Positions 7,717 through 49,721 of a stretch of DNA of 64,000 nucleotides are shown here, piece after piece; the first letter of the stretch is position 1; every line of letters starts with the position of its first letter. The notes below the pieces were generated by a model. That model saw only the letters and a program-made list of their open reading frames with translations. It ran no database searches and had not been told where the DNA came from. The position numbers and the translations under genes were made by a program. The DNA lies in the NCBI GenBank assembly GCA_024653485.1, contig JANLFY010000003.1:176686-240685 (forward strand), given 5' to 3'. This stretch comes from Bacillota bacterium (GTDB lineage: Bacteria > Bacillota > SHA-98 > UBA4971).

Positions 7717-8532
7717 TCAGGCAAGGAACAGGATCGCGTAGTAGTACGCCACGGGAACGGCGAACAACAAGCTGTCGACCCTGTCGAGCACGCCGCCGTG
7801 TCCGGGGAGGAACATCCCGGAATCCTTGACGTTGGCGTTCCGCTTCATGGCGGACTCGGCCAGGTCGCCGGCCTGCCCCGCCACTCCGATCGCAAGAGAA
7901 GCGGCCACCGCGTGAGCAAGAGGAATGCCCGGCCACCAACCCAAGGCCGCTCCGACCAGTCTGGCTCCCACACCGACACAGAGACCGGCGACAAGGCCCG
8001 CCAATGCGCCTTCCACGCTCTTCTTCGGGCTTACCTCCGCCATGAGCTTGTGCCTACCCAGGGCAGTGCCGAGGAAATAGGCACCGATATCATTCGCCCA
8101 CACTGTGACCAGAAGCGTCACCACATGTCCCAGACCGGCGTCCTTGCCACCGAGCCCCCTCAGGAGCTGAAGCAGGCAGATGGTCCACCCCACGTAAGCG
8201 CCACCAAACACCGTGACAGCTGGGTTGGCGATGGCTGATTCCCTGCCGAGCTTGAGCGTTTGAAAGACCAGGCTCACTAGGGTCATGCTCGCCAGGATGG
8301 CGCCTACCGCGGAGCTCGAGCCGGCGTACCCCGAGACGGCAAACGATACGACGCCCAATACTCCAATGATCGGGGTCGGCCGCAGCCCCGCTCCCTTTGC
8401 CAGGCTGTAGAATTCCAGAACAGCCCCGACTCCAACGCACGCGACAACTACAGCAAGATATGGCCCTCCCACCGCGACGACAGCCAGCGTAACCGGGGCC
8501 GCAACGAGCGCGCTCACGACCCTGTCCCGCAC
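7717..8532 (-). CDS. cdsA: Phosphatidate cytidylyltransferase (CDP-diacylglycerol synthase)
   Basis: Integral membrane enzyme making CDP-diacylglycerol from phosphatidate and CTP for phospholipid synthesis. About 271 residues with seven to eight membrane helices and the full C-terminal CdsA signature: SPKKSVEGALAG followed by GDLAESAMKR and KDSGMFLPGHGGVLDRVDSL, with the metal-binding Asp residues. GTG at 8532 is preferred: AAGGAGG lies eight bases upstream, and VRDRVVSALVAAP matches usual CdsA N-termini; the TTG at 8592 that overlaps uppS is the alternative. Lies directly behind uppS, as in most Bacillota. Confidence 0.95.
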   Translation of the reverse strand: MRDRVVSALVAAPVTLAVVAVGGPYLAVVVACVGVGAVLEFYSLAKGAGLRPTPIIGVLGVVSFAVSGYAGSSSAVGAILASMTLVSLVFQTLKLGRESAIANPAVTVFGGAYVGWTICLLQLLRGLGGKDAGLGHVVTLLVTVWANDIGAYFLGTALGRHKLMAEVSPKKSVEGALAGLVAGLCVGVGARLVGAALGWWPGIPLAHAVAASLAIGVAGQAGDLAESAMKRNANVKDSGMFLPGHGGVLDRVDSLLFAVPVAYYYAILFLA

Positions 8533-8588
8533 CTTCCGGACCTCCTTCCCACAGTGCCCGATCCGGCATGCTCCGGAAGAGAGCAAGA

Positions 8589-9413
8589 TCAAATCCCGCC
8601 GAATCTTCGGACTCTCCTTCGGTACTCCTGAAGCGCCCGCTCCAGCTCGCGGCGGGTGAAATCAGGCCACAACACCGGGGTAACGTACAGCTCGGTGTAC
8701 GCAATCTGCCACAGTAGGAAATTGGATATCCTCATCTCCCCGCCAGTCCGGATGAGGAGATCTGGATCTGGAACCCCCGCCGTGTACAGGCGGGCCGCCA
8801 GAACGCCAGCATCCATGTCTTGCGGTCCCAGCTCTCCCTTGACCACCGCCTCGGCCACCTGTCTGGCCGCTCTCACTATTTCGTCGCGACCGCCGTAGTT
8901 GATGGCAAGATTGACCAGGATACCCCGATTCCCCGCGGTGGCCTTCTCCACACGGTTCACGGCTTCAAGTACAGCATGAGGTAGGCCATCCCGAGCGCCG
9001 ATCACGCGAATCCGCGCTCCGAAGTCGACGAGAGGGTTCAGCCTCTTGTCGAACATCTCCACGAGCAAATCCATTAGACCGTTCACTTCATCGGAAGGGC
9101 GCCTCCAGTTCTCCGTCGAGAAGACGTACAGCGTCACCACTTCGATGCCCATCTCTGAAGCGGCCCTCACTATGTCCTCAGCACGGTCGGCACCGACTCG
9201 GTGTCCCGCAAGCCGTGGGAGACCTCGTCTCGTAGCCCACCTGCCGTTGCCGTCCATGATTATCGCCACATGGCGCGGCAATCTCTTCTCGTCCACGGGC
9301 GGCTGTTCGCCTGATTCCCTGGGCGCCTCCGGTGACCATGACCTCCCCATCGCCCTCGCGAGAAGCCACACGGGCCCCGCGAGCGTCGCCAACCCCTTCG
9401 GGAGTCGCGCCAC
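8589..9413 (-). CDS. uppS: Isoprenyl transferase (undecaprenyl diphosphate synthase)
   Basis: Cis-prenyltransferase that condenses IPP onto FPP to give the C55 lipid carrier of cell-wall synthesis. About 274 residues. The substrate motif HVAIIMDGNGRWA contains the catalytic Asp; LAGHRVGAD, LYVFSTENWRRP, NYGGRDEIVRA and the C-terminal LLIRTGGEMRISNFLLWQ with YTELYVTPVLWPDF are all present. GTG at 9413 follows GGAGG by seven bases (ATG at 9428 overlaps that site). It uses precursors made by dxr and ispG two to four genes downstream. Confidence 0.96.
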   Translation of the reverse strand: MARLPKGLATLAGPVWLLARAMGRSWSPEAPRESGEQPPVDEKRLPRHVAIIMDGNGRWATRRGLPRLAGHRVGADRAEDIVRAASEMGIEVVTLYVFSTENWRRPSDEVNGLMDLLVEMFDKRLNPLVDFGARIRVIGARDGLPHAVLEAVNRVEKATAGNRGILVNLAINYGGRDEIVRAARQVAEAVVKGELGPQDMDAGVLAARLYTAGVPDPDLLIRTGGEMRISNFLLWQIAYTELYVTPVLWPDFTRRELERALQEYRRRVRRFGGI

Positions 9414-9489
9414 AAGCTTTCCTCCCATTCAAAAGCTCAAGGGGAGCGCGCGACCTTGCGGCGACCCCCCTTGACCATGCACTCAGCCC

Positions 9490-9663
9490 CTATTCCTCTT
9501 CCACTATCGCGCCCGAGGAGCATTCCTCAGCACACATGCCGCAGTCGGTGCAGACCTCGGGGTCAATCACAAACTTGTCCTCTCCCTCGCTGATCGCCTC
9601 AAAGGGGCACACTTCCGCGCACGAACCGCACTTGGTGCAGTCGTCAGTGATCACGTGAGGCAT
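9490..9663 (-). CDS. Small 2x[4Fe-4S] ferredoxin
   Basis: 57-residue electron carrier. Two CxxCxxCxxxCP-type motifs are visible: CTKCGSCAEVCPF near residue 8 and CTDCGMCAEECSSGA near residue 38, where the usual Pro after the last Cys is replaced by Ser. ATG at 9663 has GGGAGGTG six bases upstream; an upstream GTG (9672) overlaps that site and is less likely. It sits between frr and uppS, a place where B. subtilis has no gene. Since the same run encodes IspG, an Fe-S enzyme needing reduced ferredoxin, this could be its donor; that is inference. Confidence 0.92.
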   Translation of the reverse strand: MPHVITDDCTKCGSCAEVCPFEAISEGEDKFVIDPEVCTDCGMCAEECSSGAIVEEE

Positions 9664-9678
9664 CACGGCCACCTCCCT

Positions 9679-11696
<2,018 letters not shown>

Positions 11697-36539: not shown

Positions 36540-39500
36540 TCACGCGGTTTCCTGTTGCCTGCCGTCGATATCAACGCCGTCCATCCTCACGGAGATGAGC
36601 TTCGACACGCCGGACTCCTCCATCGTCACGCCATAGAGGGCATCCGCCGCCTCCATCGTGCCCTTCCTGTGTGTCACGACCACGAACTGGCTCTTCAGAG
36701 CCGCATTCCTCAAGACATCGGTAAACCTTCCCACGTTGGCTTCGTCGAGAGCGGCATCTACCTCGTCGAGCACGCAGAACGGACTCGGTCGCACCTCGAG
36801 CAAGGCGAACACGAGCGCAGTGGCCGCAAGCGCCCGCTCCCCGGCTGAGAGAAGGCTCAGGCTCTGCAACTTCTTGCCAGGCGGCTCGGCGACTATCTCT
36901 ATTCCCGGGTCGGGCGCGTCATCGTCTGCCATCACGAGATCCGCTCTACCCCCGCCGAAGAGGCGTTCAAACTTCCTCCCGAACTCAGCCCGAATGGCCC
37001 CGAGCGTTTCTCGGAACCGCTTCTCGCTCTCGCCGTCCGAGCGCTCCATGACTTCCGCGAGGAACGCCCTCGCCCGCGCGACATCGTCGAGCCCGGAAGC
37101 CAGGTCTCCGTGGCGTTTCCTGAGCGCCTCGTACACATCGATGACGCCCTGATCGACCGGTCCAAGCGCTTCGATCTGCAGCCGGAGCGACCTCGCCCGC
37201 GCCGACGCCTCCTCCTTGTCGGACACTTCGCCCGCTCGCGCCCTCGCCTCGTCCACAGTCAAGTGGTAATTGCGTGCGAGTTCGTCCAAGACTCTATTCA
37301 CCCTCTCGACAAGCCCGGCTTCTTCGGCGGCAAGCGACGCTCTCGTCCTTTGGAGATCTTCGACTTCCCCTTGACACATCCGAAGTCTCGACTCCCTCTG
37401 GGCGAGACGCCGGACCATCTCCCGCCTCGCCTCCTTCGCCGAATCAAGAGCCCTGTCGACCTCGGCTTTCTCACGACCGAGTGACTCAAGCGCCGCGCGC
37501 GCGGACGCTATCTCCTCGCAAGCGGACTTGGACGTTCTCTCCACACGAGCCAGCTCTGCCTCCCTCGCTTCAACGTCAACCGCGATTTCCCTCGCCCGTG
37601 CGTCCAGCGCCCTCACCTGCTCGCGAAGCCCCGCTGCTTCCTGGGTCAGGGAAGCCACTCTCACTCGCAAGGCCGTCATTTCCTTGCCGATGTCCTCGCG
37701 TCTTCTCACTGTCTCCTGAAGGTCCGCTGTGAGCCTGGCTTGCGCCTCCGCCAGTTCCTGAGCGGCAGCCTCGAGGTGCGCGCGTTTCGCTTCAAGCCGC
37801 TCCCGAACTTCTCCTCTGTGGCGGTCATCCTGGCCGCCCGTCCCGAGCTCCTCCTGCAGCAGCCTCGCCTTCGAACGAGCTCTTTCCATTTCCCGGAGCG
37901 CCCGGGAGTGCACGGCCTCGGACCTCGCGATCTCCAGCTCGAGCTTCTGCCCTGCGACTCTCGCCTCTTCGACCGCCCTCTCGAGACGCGAGACCTCGTC
38001 CTGCGCCTTGGCAACGGCCAGCTCCGCTCGGTCACTTGCCCCCGCAAGCGATCCCAGCAGCGCCTCAAGCTCCTCGAGACGCTGCCTTGACGCGAGCGGC
38101 GTCTCACGCTGCTTTCCGCGCGCACCACTGCCCCCCGAGATCGCCCCTCCCGGCAACACGAGGTCGCCCTCAAGGGTCACCACTTTCAGCCGTGTGCCCG
38201 TGGCGCGCGCCACCTGCACCGCAGCGTCAAGATCCCGCGCGACGATGGTCCGCCCGAGGAGATGCTCCACGGCCTTTCTCACTCGTTCCTCGCACTGCAC
38301 AAGGGTCGATGCTCTCCCGATGACCCCATCCATCGAGAGCGCAGCCATTTCCGCTCTCGCCAGCTCCCCCGGCCTTATGAGGTCAAGGGGCAGGAAGGTG
38401 GCTCTCCCGAGCCCTCTTTCCTTTAGGTACCGCACAGCGGCTCTGGCATGGACGTCTCCTTCCACGATGACGTCGGAAAGGGCTTGTCCGAGGGCAGACT
38501 CGATTGCCTGCTCGTACTCGGGCGCCACCCTTATGCAGTCCGCGACGGCCCCGACTACGCCCGGTAGATCGCCTCGCCGCGCCGCAACGAGCACAGCTCG
38601 GGCACCGTGCGGATACCAATCGCCCGCGGATGCCGCTCTCCTCAATGCTTCCACCTGAAGGGACAGCTCCCGGACGCGCGTCCGGGTCTCCTGGCTCTCA
38701 GCCGTGAGACGCTTGAGCCTCTCCCGAGCCGCGCCGAGCTCGCGCTCGGCATCTGCCCTCTCGCGAGAGACGAGCCGAACCTTGGCGCCAAGCTCCTCCG
38801 ACCTCGCAGCCTCCTGGGCGGCCAGCGTCTCAGCCTCTCGGACCTCGGCGAGCGCCGCTTCGAGCTCTCTCCTCGACCGCTCCTCTTGCCTTGCCCGGGC
38901 AGAGTCCTCCAAAGCCATCTTGGCAAGCTCGTTCTTCACGTCCGCAGTGGCCGAGAGCACTTCTATGACATCCGCCTTTACCTTCTCCAACGCCTGTTCC
39001 GAAAGCCTCTGCGTATCGGCCAGGCCGCGTTCCTCCGTCTGTAGGGAGTCGAGGTGGTGAGAGACCTCCTCGAGCTCCGATGATATCTCGGCAAGCCTAG
39101 CCGACTTCGACTCGCTCTCACGGGCGCACGCCGCCAGGACCTGCCTATCCTTCTCCATGCTCTCTACAAGAGCCTGAACTTGCGCCGACTGTACCGTCTC
39201 CCGCTCGCGGGCCAGGGAGATCCTCCCCTCGGCTCTCTCGATCTCCGCAGCGAGCGCAGCCGCCCGCTCTTGCAGCCTGTCGCGCTCATCCTCCAGCGCT
39301 GAGAGCGCCTCCCTCTCACGGGAGATCTCATCCGACAGCGACTCCCTGAGACAACCTTCCTCGCCCAACTTCTCATCGATTTGAGAAGCCGCTCTAGTGA
39401 TCTCCGCTCTTCTCGCTTCCAGGGCGTCAAACTCCTTGAGGGCGAGAGCCAACTCGAGGTTGGCCAGCTCTTGGCAGCACTCCTGAAATCTCCTCGCCTC

Positions 39501-40130
39501 GTCGGCCTTAGCCTCGAGCGGTTCCATCTGCCTGGCAAGCTCGCCCAACACGTCTCTCACGCGGGTCGCGCAAAGATCGGCCGTGGCGAGCCGCCTTGCC
39601 GCATCCGCCCTGCGCGCCTTGTACTTGTGAATGCCCGCAGCCTCTTCGAAGAACGCTCTGCGCTCGTCCGAACCAGCACCAAGGATGGCATCGATCTTCC
39701 CTTGCTCGATTATAGAGTACCCTTCCTTGGCGGCACCCGTATCCATGAACAGCGTTTGAATGTCTTTCAAGCGGCACGGGATCCCGCAAATGGAGAAGTC
39801 GCTCTCGCCGGAGCGGTAGACACGTCTCGTCACCGCGACCTCCACAAAGTCCAAGGGAAGCGAGCCGTCGGAGTTGTCGAAGACGAGCGTGACCTCGGCG
39901 AACCCCAGCGGCTTCCTCGCGCCCGACCCGGCGAAGATGACGTCCTCCATCCTCGTTCCCCTGAGAACACGCGCGCTTTGCTCCCCGAGAACCCACCTGA
40001 CCGCGTCCGCGAGGTTGCTCTTGCCGCTTCCGTTGGGTCCCACTATAGCAGTCACGCCTGGCGAGAATTCGAGTTCCGTCTTGTCTGCGAAGGACTTGAA
40101 CCCGTAAAGCTCCATCCGTTTGAGGTACAA
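36540..40130 (-). CDS. smc: Chromosome segregation protein SMC
   Basis: Condensin ATPase that organises and segregates chromosomes with ScpAB. About 1196 residues: N-terminal head with Walker A VGPNGSGKSNLADAVRWVLGEQ, two long coiled coils (about residues 165-490 and 650-1010), a hinge (GVVGAVADCIRVAPEYEQAIESALG region), and the C-terminal head with the signature LLSAGERALAAT and Walker B FCVLDEVDAALDEAN. The signature has Ala instead of the usual second Gly (LSGGER). TTG at 40130 (GGAGG seven bases upstream) gives LYLKRMELYGFKSF, the family start. Confidence 0.96.
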   Translation of the reverse strand: MYLKRMELYGFKSFADKTELEFSPGVTAIVGPNGSGKSNLADAVRWVLGEQSARVLRGTRMEDVIFAGSGARKPLGFAEVTLVFDNSDGSLPLDFVEVAVTRRVYRSGESDFSICGIPCRLKDIQTLFMDTGAAKEGYSIIEQGKIDAILGAGSDERRAFFEEAAGIHKYKARRADAARRLATADLCATRVRDVLGELARQMEPLEAKADEARRFQECCQELANLELALALKEFDALEARRAEITRAASQIDEKLGEEGCLRESLSDEISREREALSALEDERDRLQERAAALAAEIERAEGRISLARERETVQSAQVQALVESMEKDRQVLAACARESESKSARLAEISSELEEVSHHLDSLQTEERGLADTQRLSEQALEKVKADVIEVLSATADVKNELAKMALEDSARARQEERSRRELEAALAEVREAETLAAQEAARSEELGAKVRLVSRERADAERELGAARERLKRLTAESQETRTRVRELSLQVEALRRAASAGDWYPHGARAVLVAARRGDLPGVVGAVADCIRVAPEYEQAIESALGQALSDVIVEGDVHARAAVRYLKERGLGRATFLPLDLIRPGELARAEMAALSMDGVIGRASTLVQCEERVRKAVEHLLGRTIVARDLDAAVQVARATGTRLKVVTLEGDLVLPGGAISGGSGARGKQRETPLASRQRLEELEALLGSLAGASDRAELAVAKAQDEVSRLERAVEEARVAGQKLELEIARSEAVHSRALREMERARSKARLLQEELGTGGQDDRHRGEVRERLEAKRAHLEAAAQELAEAQARLTADLQETVRRREDIGKEMTALRVRVASLTQEAAGLREQVRALDARAREIAVDVEAREAELARVERTSKSACEEIASARAALESLGREKAEVDRALDSAKEARREMVRRLAQRESRLRMCQGEVEDLQRTRASLAAEEAGLVERVNRVLDELARNYHLTVDEARARAGEVSDKEEASARARSLRLQIEALGPVDQGVIDVYEALRKRHGDLASGLDDVARARAFLAEVMERSDGESEKRFRETLGAIRAEFGRKFERLFGGGRADLVMADDDAPDPGIEIVAEPPGKKLQSLSLLSAGERALAATALVFALLEVRPSPFCVLDEVDAALDEANVGRFTDVLRNAALKSQFVVVTHRKGTMEAADALYGVTMEESGVSKLISVRMDGVDIDGRQQETA

Positions 40131-40274
40131 AGCGAATCCTCCCTGGGCGTGCGCCTGCGCCCGGACGCGCCGCCCTACGCGAGTGCTACGCTCACAGGCG
40201 AAGGGCCGACCCGAATCGACACGCATCGCCCCGGATTGCACTGGTATTGTATCACAGCCCTAACCAAAAGAGAA

Positions 40275-43722: not shown

Positions 43723-44964
43723 TTACGCGTCGAACCTCTTCAAGACGAGTACCCCGTTGTGCCCTCCAAACCCAAAGGAGTTGCACATGGCCACGTCCAC
43801 CTGCCCCTTGCGCGCCACGTTTGGCACGTAGTCCAGATCGCACTCGGGGTCCGGGTCCTCGTAATTGATGGTAGCAGGGATCAACCCGGTGGAGATGGCG
43901 AACAGGCACGCGGCCGCGCCTACGCCCCCCGCCGCCCCGAGGAGGTGACCTGTCATCGACTTGGTCGAACTTATCGCCACCTTTGGCGCCAGGGGACCGA
44001 ACAACTCCTTTATGGCCATCGTCTCACACCTGTCGTTCAGGGGCGTCGAAGTGCCGTGGGCATTGATGTAGTCGACATCGGCCGGAGAGAGCCCCGCGTC
44101 GACAAGCGCCCTCTGCATCGCGAGCAGAGCACCCTTGCCCTCGGGGTCTGGCTCGACTATGTGGTGCGCATCATCGCTCGCGCCGTACCCGACCATCTCG
44201 GCATAAGGGTCCGCCCCACGCCTAAGCGCATGATCGAGCCGCTCCAGGACCAACACGACGCTGCCTTCTCCCATTACGAATCCGTCGCGTCCCCTGTCAA
44301 ACGGCCGACAGGCCTTCTCGGGCTCATCGTTCCGGCGAGACATGGCTCGCAACGCGCAGAACCCGGCAAACCCCGCGGGCGTGATCGCAGCTTCGGCGCC
44401 CCCTGCCAACACGACGTCTGCGTCACCCCTCTGAATCACCCGGAACGCTTCGCCGAGGGCGTTAGTGGCCGCCGCGCACGCGGTCGAAACGGTGATGTTG
44501 GGGCCTCTGGCGCCGGTGAATATCGCCACCTGCCCCGAAGCCATGTTCGGGATCATCATCGGGATGAAGAACGGACTCACTCTCCGAGGCCCCTCAGCCT
44601 GCAGCGCCCCTACTTGCTCCTCGAGCACCTCCAGGCCGCCGATGCCGCATCCCATCACAACGCCGACGCGGTCCCGGTTGGAGCCGTCGACGGTGAGCCC
44701 GGCATCGGTCAGAGCCAATCGCGCAGCCGCCACGGCAAACTGCGTGAACCTGGCCAGTCGGTGAGCCTCGCGCTCCGTCATGTAATCGGTGGCGACGAAG
44801 TCGCGCACCTCGCCTGCCATCTGCGTCCTGAAAGGAGAAGGGTCGAACCTCGTCACCCTTCCGATACCGTTCCGTGACGTCCTCAGGCCATCGAAAAACG
44901 CTTCACGGCCTATCCCGATGGGGGTGACCACGCCCAGGCCCGTCACCACCACTCGCTCAGTCAT
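43723..44964 (-). CDS. fabF: Beta-ketoacyl-ACP synthase II
   Basis: Condensing enzyme for fatty-acid chain elongation. About 413 residues: RVVVTGLGVVTPIG, active-site Cys in TVSTACAAATNAL (about residue 163), His in NAHGTSTPLNDRCE and His in STKSMTGHLLGAAGG. ATG at 44964 behind GGGGTGAGGG. Last gene of the fapR-controlled operon; ACP gene is immediately upstream. Confidence 0.97.
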   Translation of the reverse strand: MTERVVVTGLGVVTPIGIGREAFFDGLRTSRNGIGRVTRFDPSPFRTQMAGEVRDFVATDYMTEREAHRLARFTQFAVAAARLALTDAGLTVDGSNRDRVGVVMGCGIGGLEVLEEQVGALQAEGPRRVSPFFIPMMIPNMASGQVAIFTGARGPNITVSTACAAATNALGEAFRVIQRGDADVVLAGGAEAAITPAGFAGFCALRAMSRRNDEPEKACRPFDRGRDGFVMGEGSVVLVLERLDHALRRGADPYAEMVGYGASDDAHHIVEPDPEGKGALLAMQRALVDAGLSPADVDYINAHGTSTPLNDRCETMAIKELFGPLAPKVAISSTKSMTGHLLGAAGGVGAAACLFAISTGLIPATINYEDPDPECDLDYVPNVARKGQVDVAMCNSFGFGGHNGVLVLKRFDA

Positions 44965-45026: not shown

Positions 45027-45290
45027 TTACTCCTCGTCGCCAACCCTCTCCAGAATGAACTCGACGATGTCCTGAACCGTCGTGTCTTCCGCGATCTCCA
45101 CGTCAAGGGTCCCGAGGTCGAATTCCCGGTCAAGTTCATCGCCGATGCTCATCCTCGTGGCAGAGTCGGCGTACAGGTCGTTCATCGTGGCGTCCCACGT
45201 CACCAACGATTCGTCGACCTTCGCCTCGCGAACGATGATCCTTTTGACCTTCTCGAAAATCGCCTCCGCTTTCGGACTCACCTCACCCAT
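45027..45290 (-). CDS. acpP: Acyl carrier protein, atypical
   Basis: 87 residues, acidic four-helix carrier to which growing acyl chains are bound. The phosphopantetheine Ser is in DLYADSATRMSIGDELDREFDL; the standard sequence there is GADSLDxVELVMELEDEF, so only D-S of DSLD remains and the conserved acidic/hydrophobic face of helix II (D-x-x-E-L) is altered. The rest (KVKRIIVREAKVDESLV; TVQDIVEFILERVG) looks like ACP. ATG at 45290 is preceded by GGAGGTG. It is in the operon position of acpP, between fabG and fabF, so it is probably the main ACP unless another is encoded elsewhere. Confidence 0.85.
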   Translation of the reverse strand: MGEVSPKAEAIFEKVKRIIVREAKVDESLVTWDATMNDLYADSATRMSIGDELDREFDLGTLDVEIAEDTTVQDIVEFILERVGDEE

Positions 45291-45343: not shown

Positions 45344-46087
45344 TCACATCGCCATGCCTCCGTCCACGCAGAGGACCTGGCCGGTTATGTAGCCCGCTTC
45401 GTCCGACGCCAGGAAGACGCACGCGGCTGCCACTTCCTCAGCCGTGCCCGGGCGGCCCAGCGGCACGCCGGCAAGCAGCCTCGCCTTCACGTCGTCCTTC
45501 AGAGAGGCAGCCATGCCGACGTCTATGAGCCCGGGCGCGATGGCGTTCACCGTCACACCTCTCATGGCCAGTTCGCGGGCTGCGGCCTTCGTGAGGCCTA
45601 TTACGCCCGCCTTGGCCGCGGAGTAGTTGGCCTGCCCGGCGTTCCCCGTGACACCGGCCACAGACGAGATGTTTATTATCCTCCCGTGGCGCTGCCTAAA
45701 CATCCTCTTCCCCACGGCTCGGGTGAAATTGAACACTCCGGAGAGGTTTACGCGCATCACTTCCTCCCACTCGGCGTCGGTCATCCTGATGAGAAAGTTG
45801 TCCCGCCGTATCCCGGCATTGTTGACGAGGATGTCTATGCGGGAGAACCGCTCGCAGATGCGCTCGCAGGCCAGTTCCACATCGTCGGATGACGACACGT
45901 CACACGCGAGGGCAATGGCCTGCCTGCCCATCTCCTCGATCTTCCGGGCGAGATCCTCGGCGGCGGCAAGATTGCGCCCGGCCACCACTGCTACCGAGGC
46001 TCCTTCGCGTGCCATCGCCTCCACACAAGCCCGTCCTATCCCACCAGACGCTCCCGTCACAACGGCGACTTTGCCCGCCAGCCTCAT
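45344..46087 (-). CDS. fabG: 3-oxoacyl-ACP reductase
   Basis: NADPH-dependent reductase of fatty-acid elongation, SDR family. 247 residues: cofactor motif VVTGASGGIGRACVEAM, DILVNNAGIRRDNFL, catalytic Ser in IINISSVAGVTGN, Tyr-x-x-x-Lys in ANYSAAKAGVIGLTKAAA, VNAIAPGLI and a C-terminal YITGQVLCVDGGMAM. ATG at 46087 overlaps the fabD stop region (TAATATG). Normal in every key residue. Confidence 0.96.
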   Translation of the reverse strand: MRLAGKVAVVTGASGGIGRACVEAMAREGASVAVVAGRNLAAAEDLARKIEEMGRQAIALACDVSSSDDVELACERICERFSRIDILVNNAGIRRDNFLIRMTDAEWEEVMRVNLSGVFNFTRAVGKRMFRQRHGRIINISSVAGVTGNAGQANYSAAKAGVIGLTKAAARELAMRGVTVNAIAPGLIDVGMAASLKDDVKARLLAGVPLGRPGTAEEVAAACVFLASDEAGYITGQVLCVDGGMAM

Positions 46088-46088
46088 A

Positions 46089-47036
46089 TTACCGGACCCC
46101 CTTGATGAATTCAAGCGCATCTTCCATAGGGGCCGACGCCTCCGCCGCCACAGCTTGTGCCTCCGGCACGATGCGCCTGACCAGGCCCGTGAGCGTCTTT
46201 CCCGGACCGGCCTCCACGAATGCCCGCGCCCCTGTCTCCCACATGTACCTGACAGACTCCTCCCAGAGGACGGGAGAGGACATCTGTTTCACAAGCATCT
46301 CCCGCAACTCGTCCGCGTCGCACGACGCCCGTCCGGTCACGTTGCACACAACAGGCACGGCCGGCGTTCCCAAGTCCACACCCCTGAGTTCGGCCTCGAA
46401 CGCCGAAGAAGCGCTGGTCATCAGCTTCGAATGAAACGGCCCGCTCACCCTGAGCGGGATGACGCGCCGCGCCCCTGCGCGGGAACACAACTCGCCGGCC
46501 ACCCTCACCGCGCCTGTTTCGCCGGAGATAACCACCTGATCCGGCGCGTTGAAATTCGCCGCGTTCACGTCGCCCGCGCCCGAATTGCGGGCATCTTCAC
46601 AACAGCGCACGACGTCAATGCGCCCCAGGCCGACGATGGCGGCCATCGCCCCCACGCCCGGCGGCACGGCGGCCTGCATCAACTCTCCGCGCCTCCTCAC
46701 GAGCCGGACTGCCTGGCTGAACCCAAGACAACCGGCCGCGACGAGCGCCGAGTACTCTCCGAGACTGTGGCCGGCGACGATGCTCGGCTGCATCCCCATG
46801 GATTCCAGCACCCTGAAGACGGCCACGCTCACCGTGAGCACAGCGGGTTGGGTGTTCTGAGTGAGGGCGAGATCCTCAGCGGATCCCTGAAAGCACAGTT
46901 CGGACAGGCGGAAACCAAGAGCATCGTCTGCCTCCTCGAACACCTGCCTAGCCTCGGCGTACCGTGATGCCAGCTCCTTACCCATTCCCACGTATTGTGC
47001 GCCCTGCCCGGGAAACACGAGGGCTATCCTATTCAC
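46089..47036 (-). CDS. fabD: Malonyl-CoA:ACP transacylase
   Basis: Transfers malonyl from CoA to ACP. About 315 residues: IALVFPGQGAQYVGMG at the start, nucleophile in IVAGHSLGEYSALVAAG, RGELMQAAVPPGVGAMAAI, the HSKLMTSA segment with the second catalytic His, and a C-terminal ETGARAFVEAGPGKTLTGLVRRI. GTG at 47036 overlaps the fabH 3' end and has GGGTGAG upstream; a second GTG nine bases earlier is possible. Confidence 0.96.
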   Translation of the reverse strand: MNRIALVFPGQGAQYVGMGKELASRYAEARQVFEEADDALGFRLSELCFQGSAEDLALTQNTQPAVLTVSVAVFRVLESMGMQPSIVAGHSLGEYSALVAAGCLGFSQAVRLVRRRGELMQAAVPPGVGAMAAIVGLGRIDVVRCCEDARNSGAGDVNAANFNAPDQVVISGETGAVRVAGELCSRAGARRVIPLRVSGPFHSKLMTSASSAFEAELRGVDLGTPAVPVVCNVTGRASCDADELREMLVKQMSSPVLWEESVRYMWETGARAFVEAGPGKTLTGLVRRIVPEAQAVAAEASAPMEDALEFIKGVR

Positions 47037-48048
47037 CGAACTCACCCTTGCACCAGCGGAGGATGGCAGCCCCCCAAGTGAGGCCCGCCCCGAAGGCGAC
47101 CAACAGGACGCGGGCGCCCTGCTTGAGCTTGCCACTCCTTGACGCTTCGTCCAACGCTATCGGAATGGAGGCTGCGGACGTGTTCCCAAACCTCGCCACG
47201 TTGGAGTACACTTTCTCGGGAGTCCCAAGTCGCTCCGCCGCGAGATCGAGGAGCCTCTGGTTCGCCTGGTGAGGGATGACCAAGTCCACGTCGTCCTCAG
47301 TAAGCCCTGCCTTGGCGATCACTTCTCGGGTCGCGTCCACCATCACCCTCACGGCGAACCTATAAACCTGGTTGCCCTGCATGTGAATGTAGTGAAGGCC
47401 TTCCTCCAGCGTATCCCGGGACGCCGGGTGGGCCGACCCCCCTCCTGGGAGCGTGAGCAGGTCGCCCCGCGTGCCGTCCGCGCCAAGCGTACAGGCGATG
47501 ACCCCGTCGCTGCGCTCGAGCGGCCTCACGAGGACCGCCCCCGCGCCGTCGCCGAAGAGCACACACGTGTTACGATCTTTCCAGTTCACGATCCTCGAGA
47601 GGGTCTCGGCGCCAATGACCAAGACGTTGTCATAAGTCCCCGCCGCCACCAGGCTGTGGGCGACTGAGAGTGCGTATACGAACCCAGTGCAGCCCGCCCC
47701 GATGTCGAACGCCGCCGCCTGAGAGGCGCCGATCTTGCCCTGAACGACGCACGCGCACGACGGGAACGGCATGTCCGGGGTCACGGTGGCGACTATCACG
47801 AGATCTACGTCCTTGGCTGGCACCCCGGCGTCCTCGAGCGCAAGTCTGGCGGCCCGCGCCGCGAGGTCCGAGGTGACCTCGCCATCGCTCGCGATGCGTC
47901 TCTCTCTGATCCCCGTGCGCTCAACTATCCAGGCGTCGCTTGTGTCTACCATCTTCTCGAGATGGAAGTTGGTCAGGACTGTCTCTGGCACTGCGGCGCC
48001 TGTTCCCGCGATGCCGGCCCCGCGGACGGTCTTCGCGCTAGCTTCCAA
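47029..48048 (-). CDS. fabH: Beta-ketoacyl-ACP synthase III
   Basis: Starts fatty-acid synthesis by condensing acyl-CoA with malonyl-ACP. 339 residues: GTGAAVPETVLTN, SDAWIVERTGIRERR, catalytic Cys in FDIGAGCTGFVYALSVA, His in VIPHQANQRLLDL and Asn in FGNTSAASIPIAL. TTG start with GGAGGAAACGAAG upstream, overlapping plsX by 11 bases. Complete catalytic triad, so a functional initiator enzyme. Confidence 0.96.
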   Translation of the reverse strand: MEASAKTVRGAGIAGTGAAVPETVLTNFHLEKMVDTSDAWIVERTGIRERRIASDGEVTSDLAARAARLALEDAGVPAKDVDLVIVATVTPDMPFPSCACVVQGKIGASQAAAFDIGAGCTGFVYALSVAHSLVAAGTYDNVLVIGAETLSRIVNWKDRNTCVLFGDGAGAVLVRPLERSDGVIACTLGADGTRGDLLTLPGGGSAHPASRDTLEEGLHYIHMQGNQVYRFAVRVMVDATREVIAKAGLTEDDVDLVIPHQANQRLLDLAAERLGTPEKVYSNVARFGNTSAASIPIALDEASRSGKLKQGARVLLVAFGAGLTWGAAILRWCKGEFGE

Positions 48049-49063
48049 CTTCGTTTCCTCCTTCGTATCCCCCGGCCGAGACCATTTCCGCTATGGAATT
48101 CACTACTCCCCCGTCGCACGCCGACTTCGCGGCGCGAATTGCGTTCGCAATCGCCTTCGCCTTCGAGCGTCCGTGTGCTATCACGGTCACGCCGTTCACG
48201 CCCAACAGCAGGGCTCCCCCATACTCCGAGTAGTCCATGCGCTTGGCGAGGGACTTGAGAGCAGGCCTTGCCAGCAAGGCTCCGATCTTGTACACCACGC
48301 TCTTGTTGATGGAGGCCTTCAACATGCTTACGATGGCCTCGCCCACGCCTTCCGCCAGCTTGAGGGCGACGTTCCCCGTGAACCCGTCGGTCACCACCAC
48401 ATCCGCCCTGCCAAATGGGATGTCCTTGCCCTCGATGTTGCCGACGAAGCCAAGGTCCGCTTTGGAGAGGAGCGCGTGAGCGGCGACCACGAGTTCCGTG
48501 CCTTTGGTCTCCTCTTCACCATTGCTCAGGAGAGCGACTCTTGGCCTCGGTATCCCCATGACGCTCTTGGCGTACGCCGCGCCCATCTGGGCGAAGGTCA
48601 AGATATGATGGGGCCTGCACTCAGAGTTGGCCCCCGCGTCGATGAGGAGGCAGTACCCAACCGTGGTAGGAAACACCGTGGCTATCGCAGGCCTATCCAC
48701 ACCCCGTATCCGCTTCTGTCTCATGATGGCGGACACCATGGCCGCTCCCGTGTTGCCCGCTGACACCATAGCTGAAGCCTCGCCCCTCCCGACGAGGTCC
48801 GCAGCGACCAGCACCGATGCATCGCGGGTTTTCCGGAGCGCCTCGACGGGATGGTGCTCGTCCATGGAGATCACACCGCCCGCATGGACCACCGAAATCG
48901 AAGACCCTTTCGCGCCTCCGAGCGCCGCCAGTCTCCTCTCAATGGCCTCTCTGTCGCCGACGAGCACGACGTCCACGTCAAGCTCTTTCGAGGCCAGCAC
49001 GGCGCCGGCCACCGTCTCATCCGGGGCGAAGTCGCCTCCCATCGCGTCAAGGGCGATCCTCAT
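48038..49063 (-). CDS. plsX: Phosphate acyltransferase
   Basis: Converts acyl-ACP to acyl-phosphate for phospholipid synthesis by PlsY/PlsC. About 341 residues: MRIALDAMGGDFAPDETVAGA, GDREAIERRLA, SAGNTGAAMVSAIMRQKRIRGVDRPAIATVFPT (NTGA motif), LLSNGEEETKGTELV, GNIEGKDIPFG and VVTDGFTGNVALKLAEGV. ATG at 49063 overlaps the end of fapR. Fatty acids activated by the FakA/DegV pair elsewhere in the window enter the same acyl-phosphate pool. Confidence 0.96.
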   Translation of the reverse strand: MRIALDAMGGDFAPDETVAGAVLASKELDVDVVLVGDREAIERRLAALGGAKGSSISVVHAGGVISMDEHHPVEALRKTRDASVLVAADLVGRGEASAMVSAGNTGAAMVSAIMRQKRIRGVDRPAIATVFPTTVGYCLLIDAGANSECRPHHILTFAQMGAAYAKSVMGIPRPRVALLSNGEEETKGTELVVAAHALLSKADLGFVGNIEGKDIPFGRADVVVTDGFTGNVALKLAEGVGEAIVSMLKASINKSVVYKIGALLARPALKSLAKRMDYSEYGGALLLGVNGVTVIAHGRSKAKAIANAIRAAKSACDGGVVNSIAEMVSAGGYEGGNEVGS

Positions 49064-49721
49064 CCAACTTACCCCCCTCACAACTTCCCTTGGTCGTGCC
49101 CTCCCCAGGCGAGGAATCCAGCGCAAACACAACGAACTCGCCTCTGAACACGTCCTCGTCAGCGACTCTCGAGACCACGTTCACGTGGTACCTCCGACCC
49201 ACCCTTTCCGTGACTCGAGCTTTCGCCACTAGCCTATCACCGGCCCTGACAGGTCGCAGGAACCTTACGTTCGCGGTGCCCGTCAGGGCGACTTCCGCGT
49301 CCACGAGCGCGACAGCGAGCGAGTTGGCCTGTGCGAAGATATGGTGTCCCCTTACGACGCCCGTCCGCCTGAAAGCCATGTCGGCCGTTGGCTCGAGGAT
49401 CGAAACGCCCTCTTGCCCCAGCACCACGTGCACAAGGTCCCCTATGACCTCCCCCGTCATCACCGACCGCACGTTCTTTGTGGCTTCCTCCGCCACTCTT
49501 CTCGTGCGTTCACGCGATTCGGGGATCCCCAGTTCCAGTCTGTCGAGACGGATCGTCTGCACGCTGACGCCCAGTTTCTTCGCAAGCTCCCTGTCGGTAA
49601 CGAAGGGATCCCCCTCGAGCATCGCTCGAAGGCGCTCATGACGCTCGGACTTGGATGGTTTCGCGCCCAATGGGCTATCGCTCCTTGAAGAGGGGCCATC
49701 CTGCGCGGAAGGAGCGACCAT
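49047..49721 (-). CDS. fapR: Fatty-acid biosynthesis transcriptional repressor FapR
   Basis: Malonyl-CoA-responsive repressor of fab genes in Bacillota. 224 residues: N-terminal helix-turn-helix (FVTDRELAKKLGVSVQTIRLDRLELGIPE) and a C-terminal hot-dog ligand domain (GVVRGHHIFAQANSLAVALVDAEVALTG; FLRPVRAGDRLVAKARV). A 17-bp operator of FapR type lies at its own promoter, so it is autoregulated and controls the whole downstream operon. First ATG at 49721 has GGAGGGG rather far upstream. Confidence 0.95.
   Translation of the reverse strand: MVAPSAQDGPSSRSDSPLGAKPSKSERHERLRAMLEGDPFVTDRELAKKLGVSVQTIRLDRLELGIPESRERTRRVAEEATKNVRSVMTGEVIGDLVHVVLGQEGVSILEPTADMAFRRTGVVRGHHIFAQANSLAVALVDAEVALTGTANVRFLRPVRAGDRLVAKARVTERVGRRYHVNVVSRVADEDVFRGEFVVFALDSSPGEGTTKGSCEGGKLDEDRP

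Follow-up and report, generated by a model that had tools for sequence, protein, structure and literature searches.

At positions 45027-45290 of the window (the whole 64,000-nucleotide stretch of DNA analysed here), a fatty acid synthesis operon contains a gene for an acyl carrier protein (ACP) whose helix II departs from the familiar one. A sequence-only reading described the recognition helix as degenerate and left two possibilities: the protein is the primary ACP and its partner enzymes have co-adapted, or a second acpP exists elsewhere. Which of these holds is the question raised by the locus. We favour, with a probability of roughly 0.8, the view that this is the sole ACP of fatty acid synthesis in an uncultured Bacillota class, that its docking face has been re-coded, and that its partners have changed along with it. 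The features of the gene are as follows.

45027-45290, minus strand: acyl carrier protein with a class-specific docking face, 87 aa (PF00550, 29.9 bits; present in 17/17 class genomes)
45120-45164, minus strand: helix II, residues 43-57, from the predicted phosphopantetheine Ser43, with recognition residues replaced (AlphaFold2 helix 43-57; alignment)
45219-45230, minus strand: helix I end, residues 21-24 (R-E-A-K; E. coli 13-16), class-specific (alignment)

The open reading frame begins with ATG and encodes 87 aa. Its score against the PF00550 (PP-binding) profile lies above the curated cut-off of 20.8 bits and makes it a carrier protein, and its gene, flanked by fabG and fabF, occupies the acpP place of the fab operon. 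Against the NCBIfam ACP profiles it stays below all cut-offs (TIGR00517, 32.3 versus 70.45; the best, NF002150, 44.4 versus 66). AcpP is also marked by its helix II motif DSL(D), alongside the acidic residues E41, E47 and E48; the alignment instead has A37, T38, S41, D47 and R48 in 17/17 class ACPs. Since both the equivalog cut-offs and the motif fail, we file the protein as a variant PF00550 carrier and not as a member of TIGR00517. An AlphaFold2 model (pLDDT 84) has three called helices, with helix III uncalled. The serine stands at the N-terminus of helix II: D42-S43 is found in 17/17 class ACPs, and the modelled helix 43-57 starts at Ser43. ACPs lead the list of Foldseek matches to the model, with weak E-values (best 0.011) and TM-scores over the query of 0.56-0.79 among the 50 matches listed; the best PDB sequence match is the T. 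maritima ACP 6lvt (34.3 bits). The protein resembles AcpP of E. coli, B. subtilis and T. maritima in size, operon place, probable carrier fold and the D-S opening helix II, whereas the helix II recognition residues, the helix I end and the helix III region are replaced. Most likely the variant works like AcpP, and the AcpS of the lineage itself would attach the phosphopantetheine to its Ser43.

To describe the replacements, 17 class ACPs were aligned with E. coli AcpP (NC_000913, whose mature numbering is used below) and 32 outgroup ACPs of the phylum, and a position was called class-specific if at most 15% of the outgroup residues also occurred in the class. Helix II reads S-A-T-R-M-S-I-G-D-E-L-D-R-E-F in the class versus the usual S-L-D-x-V-E-L-V-M-A-L-E-E-E-F. 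The changes are L37>A, D38>T, T39>R, V40>M, E41>S and L42>I in its first half and V43>G/A, M44>D, A45>E, E47>D and E48>R in its second, so that positions 37-45, 47 and 48 are all class-specific. The earlier description of this gene, with the serine kept and the L-D and E-L of helix II replaced, is exact in motif and coordinates; what it missed is that the change extends to the helix I end (positions 13-16: E13>R/K, Q14>E, L15>A, G16>K/R) and to the region of helix III (E53>G, P55>L, E57>V, K61>E, I62>D, and also position 59). Positions 27, 28, 30 and 33, which precede the serine, are class-specific as well, as are a few others. D35, S36, L46, E49 and D56 are retained in most or all of the ACPs aligned. 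At 37 all 32 outgroup ACPs carry L or I, at 38 D, E or N, and at 39, where the class has Arg, most relatives have I, V or L. D44 alone is not unique to the class (3/32 outgroup ACPs). The net charge of D35-F50 is -3 in 17/17 class ACPs versus -4 to -7 in 32/32 outgroup ACPs. No intermediate forms were found among the class and outgroup sequences compared.

The word degenerate turned out to be wrong. The block DATMNDLYADSATRMSI[GA]DELDRE[FY] is present in 17/17 class genomes, and amino acid variation in the 25-residue block around the serine is limited to two positions, G/A and F/Y. Comparing each of the other 16 genomes with the window over these 25 codons gives 7-17 silent and 0-2 amino acid changes. 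Constancy in 17/17 genomes in the face of such silent divergence is evidence of purifying selection and excludes a sequencing error, so the idea that the gene is misread or decaying, in favour of which nothing was found, can practically be discarded. Among the genomes searched, the variant is also confined to the class. In a search of 398 phylum genomes, scores were 112-172 bits for the 16 class members drawn; the highest among the 382 others was 42 bits, and the variant was found in none of these 382. Scanning contigs with six exact peptide patterns, which divergent relatives could escape, gave 13 loci, all apparently from class genomes. A literature search returned no paper on a comparable class-wide ACP, which is weak evidence of novelty as subscription journals lay mostly outside its coverage.

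A second possibility is that the protein serves another pathway and that the genuine acpP escaped the search or falls into a gap of the assembly. The scores under every NCBIfam ACP cut-off are compatible with this, as is the division of the source genome over 41 contigs. However, no second acpP scored over the PF00550 cut-off in that genome, which is 98.93% complete; its sub-threshold matches (12.0 and 8.8 bits) both fall within other long frames. The operon ACP is the single match over the cut-off in 15/17 class genomes, and a gap occurring in all 15 at once is improbable. Moreover, the gene sits in the place of acpP in an operon whose FabF and FabH have changed. We consider this alternative very improbable, and the second acpP suggested by the sequence-only reading was not found in the source genome or in 15/17 genomes of the class. 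The additional carriers of the remaining two genomes are of a divergent WDS[LIM] kind, one in G002 and two in G016. A second phosphopantetheinyl transferase (PPTase) is encoded no more than about 3.4 kb from the latter two and on one strand with them (L143, G016:C20:1000-20000, about 8100-11450). This PPTase has R17, V18 and F25, where 15/15 class AcpS rows have E/D, L and L, and together with the two carriers it is probably a separate carrier-PPTase pair of a secondary pathway. AcpS and FabZ were each found in 16/17 class genomes.

If the variant is the only ACP, the enzymes that bind it should be considered next to it. In the direction of transcription (leftwards) the gene order is fapR, plsX, fabH, fabD, fabG, acp, fabF, rnc, and all named operon neighbours of acp score over an NCBIfam cut-off.

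49047-49721, minus strand: fapR, operon regulator by homology (NF003359, 248.9 bits)
48038-49063, minus strand: plsX, acyl-ACP:phosphate acyltransferase (TIGR00182, 350.3 bits)
47029-48048, minus strand: fabH, ketosynthase III with E256 and L253 (TIGR00747, 420.6 bits)
46089-47036, minus strand: fabD, no class-specific docking change seen (TIGR00128, 348 bits; 1/285 columns)
45344-46087, minus strand: fabG, class-specific residues flanking R129 and R172 (TIGR01830, 316.8 bits)
43723-44964, minus strand: fabF, ketosynthase II, changed ACP contacts (TIGR03150, 611 bits; 5/12 of the contacts in the consulted part of the source class-specific)
36540-40241: smc, open reading frame beyond rnc, recognised by eye

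FabF, FabG, FabD, FabH and PlsX of 17 class and 20 outgroup genomes (19 for PlsX) were aligned with their E. coli counterparts. The columns of FabF, FabH, FabG and FabD had been inspected before the contact lists were fixed. The FabH list joins positions from PMC8036411 with two others, 214 and 257; the 12 FabF contacts come wholly from PMC7138838, those of FabG from PMC7966745 and those of AcpS from PMC9338922 and PMC3447402, in each case from passages of the paper, and "listed" below refers to these lists. In FabF, 18/408 columns are class-specific, and they include 5/12 listed contacts versus 13/396 other columns (Fisher p 6e-5). The changed contacts are K65>R, R68>H/Y, A205>L and T270>V, and at R127 an Arg is fixed in the class and variable in others (PMC7138838 numbering). 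Beside the contacts, 16/17 class sequences have E, P or D at position 64, versus K or R in 19/20 of the outgroup, and 17/17 have E at position 271, versus 1/20. In a control clade, whose 10 genomes all have canonical ACPs, 0/12 listed FabF contacts and 9/396 other columns are clade-specific, and drawing 10 class genomes at random, six times over, still gives 5/12 each time. In FabH, 2/7 contacts on the list (213 and 256) are class-specific (p 0.03), as are columns 35, 211, 221, 248, 250 and 253 beside it. None of the four listed FabG contacts is changed; class-specific residues occur at 122, 124, 126 and 171, near R129 and R172. Taking FabF, FabH and FabG together, 7 class-specific columns fall on listed contacts versus 1.05 expected (reached in 3/5000 circular shifts), 19 versus 4.9 within 3 residues of them (1/5000) and 23 versus 7.0 within 5 residues (0/5000).

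These counts bear on a further alternative, in which the ACP helix changed for reasons of its own (fold stability, the acyl pocket, or another partner such as LpxA) and the enzyme changes are incidental drift along a long stem. FabD, with 1/285 class-specific columns, shows nothing to match the ACP, and no rank test on divergence scores reached significance for FabF (p 0.10), FabH, FabG or AcpS; both findings agree with drift. The overall rates of class-specific columns are likewise not raised, being no higher than in RNase III (11/197; SMC has 9/326 and FapR 2/177); what sets the docking enzymes apart is where the changes are. It is this location that speaks against drift, the class-specific columns being clustered on or beside the listed contacts, and the clade with canonical ACPs having none of the 12 in FabF. 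The presence of lpxA and lpxC in the genome also fits a change for another partner, and in a Bacillota lineage with lipopolysaccharide genes LpxA would be another reader of the variant ACP. On balance we regard this explanation as unlikely, though not as remote as a missed acpP, and prefer the reading in which ACP and partners changed together.

Several observations concern other enzymes that handle acyl-ACP. In the source genome lpxC, fabZ and lpxA are adjacent (L209, G000:C1:58000-77900, 8740-11041 and around), with neighbours that by eye resemble lpxI, lpxB, lptD and lptA. In PlsX (48038-49063), 15/322 columns are class-specific, and those at E. coli positions 82, 92 and 95 are among the ones losing bases kept by all or most others. 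A literature search found no list of PlsX-ACP contacts; judging by the alignment, the class-specific columns may mark its ACP site. FabZ differs at 4/133 columns, but some of its rows were badly extracted (one was lost from the alignment), and the comparison therefore supports no claim.

Some of the changes look like traded contacts. Residue R21 of the window ACP is equivalent to E. coli E13, a partner of bases in FabF and FabH in the portions of PMC7138838 and PMC8036411 consulted, and an E. coli docking model described in the latter pairs E13 (E14 in the paper) with FabH K256. The class has E at FabH 256 in 17/17 genomes, together with R (16 genomes) or K (one genome) at ACP 13; among the 20 outgroup genomes with both proteins, ACP 13 is E/D in 19 and FabH 256 is K/R in 17. 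Similarly, ACP L37>A is accompanied by FabH A253>L/I in 17/17 class genomes. Aligning the ACPs and AcpS of relatives, as the sequence-only reading had proposed, shows the ACP change to be class-wide, with a weaker signal in AcpS, where positions 17 and 18 have shifted. The AcpS comparison used 15/17 class and 26/30 outgroup rows, leaving out the G003 row (frame misread on extraction), the second PPTase of G016, and the outgroup rows L094, L096 and L111 (all Sfp-like by eye) and L110 (misread). Position 18 is Leu in 15/15 class rows versus 3/26 in the outgroup; according to the part of PMC9338922 consulted, the equivalents of ACP 37 and AcpS 18 touch in the L. plantarum AcpS-DltC1 complex (numbering transferred here). 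Position 17 is acidic in 15/15 versus 6/26, and might meet the new R39 of the ACP. B. subtilis AcpS R14 binds ACP D35/D38 in the consulted part of PMC3447402; R14 is retained in 15/15 class rows and D35 in 17/17 ACPs. R45, also a listed contact, differs in the class, but its loop aligns badly. One unrelated phylum member (L127, G029:C7:49500-68000) has I37, D44 and Q48 in its ACP and Y253 and D256 in its FabH, perhaps a second, milder docking shift; as its ACP retains E13 beside FabH D256, it is no clean second case.

The matching changes in ACP and enzymes suggest a partnership rewired together. In this view the entire docking face of the ACP (helix I end, helix II and helix III region) would have changed along the stem of the class, accompanied by those of FabF and FabH and, less clearly, of AcpS and FabG. 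An acid and a base would have been swapped at the pair ACP 13/FabH 256, the smaller side chain of L37>A would be offset by larger ones (FabH A253>L/I, AcpS 18 Leu), and the loss of ACP acids (E13, D38) would be matched by the loss of a FabF base (R68>H/Y). The idea of a primary ACP with co-adapted partners is to this extent supported: the changes at docking positions are clear in FabF and FabH, weaker in AcpS and FabG, and absent in FabD. Counted against it are the single FabD column, the rank tests and the four listed FabG contacts that are kept. The class is moreover one clade, so that its docking change amounts to a single unreplicated event. Also counted against it is that the searches identified no enoyl-ACP reductase: FabK gave no match over the cut-off in the 17 class genomes, no E. 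coli-like FabI was found in class genomes at 1e-20 in a search run without a positive control, and a FabV-type search gave no signal in class genomes, but none in control genomes either.

Known systems offer partial parallels. In the part of PMC8036411 consulted, the residues of Acinetobacter baumannii FabH that match E. coli R36 and R249 are unconserved, a known instance of variation in docking codes; that case concerns one enzyme, whereas the class departs in its ACP and at least two enzymes at once. As far as the sources consulted describe them, DltC and Enterococcus AcpB share with the class ACP the carrier fold (here probable) and AcpS as modifying enzyme (here predicted). Both accompany a canonical AcpP, in contrast to the class ACP, which in 15/17 genomes is without another carrier over the cut-off.

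It is tempting, at somewhat less than even odds, to go further and propose that ACP docking throughout the class follows a re-coded language: the hub and several of its enzymes would have exchanged their contacts along a single stem, making the set orthogonal to the canonical system. If the proposal is true, canonical AcpS, FabF or FabH would be poor partners for the class ACP, and the class enzymes for canonical ACPs. The docking face of an ACP must suit many enzymes, and its change is therefore expected to be hard; a clade in which hub and several readers changed together would make the evolution of a hub interface directly testable. The class may also offer a naturally orthogonal set of ACP and ketosynthases for engineering, and it illustrates that annotation cut-offs can overlook the only ACP of a genome.
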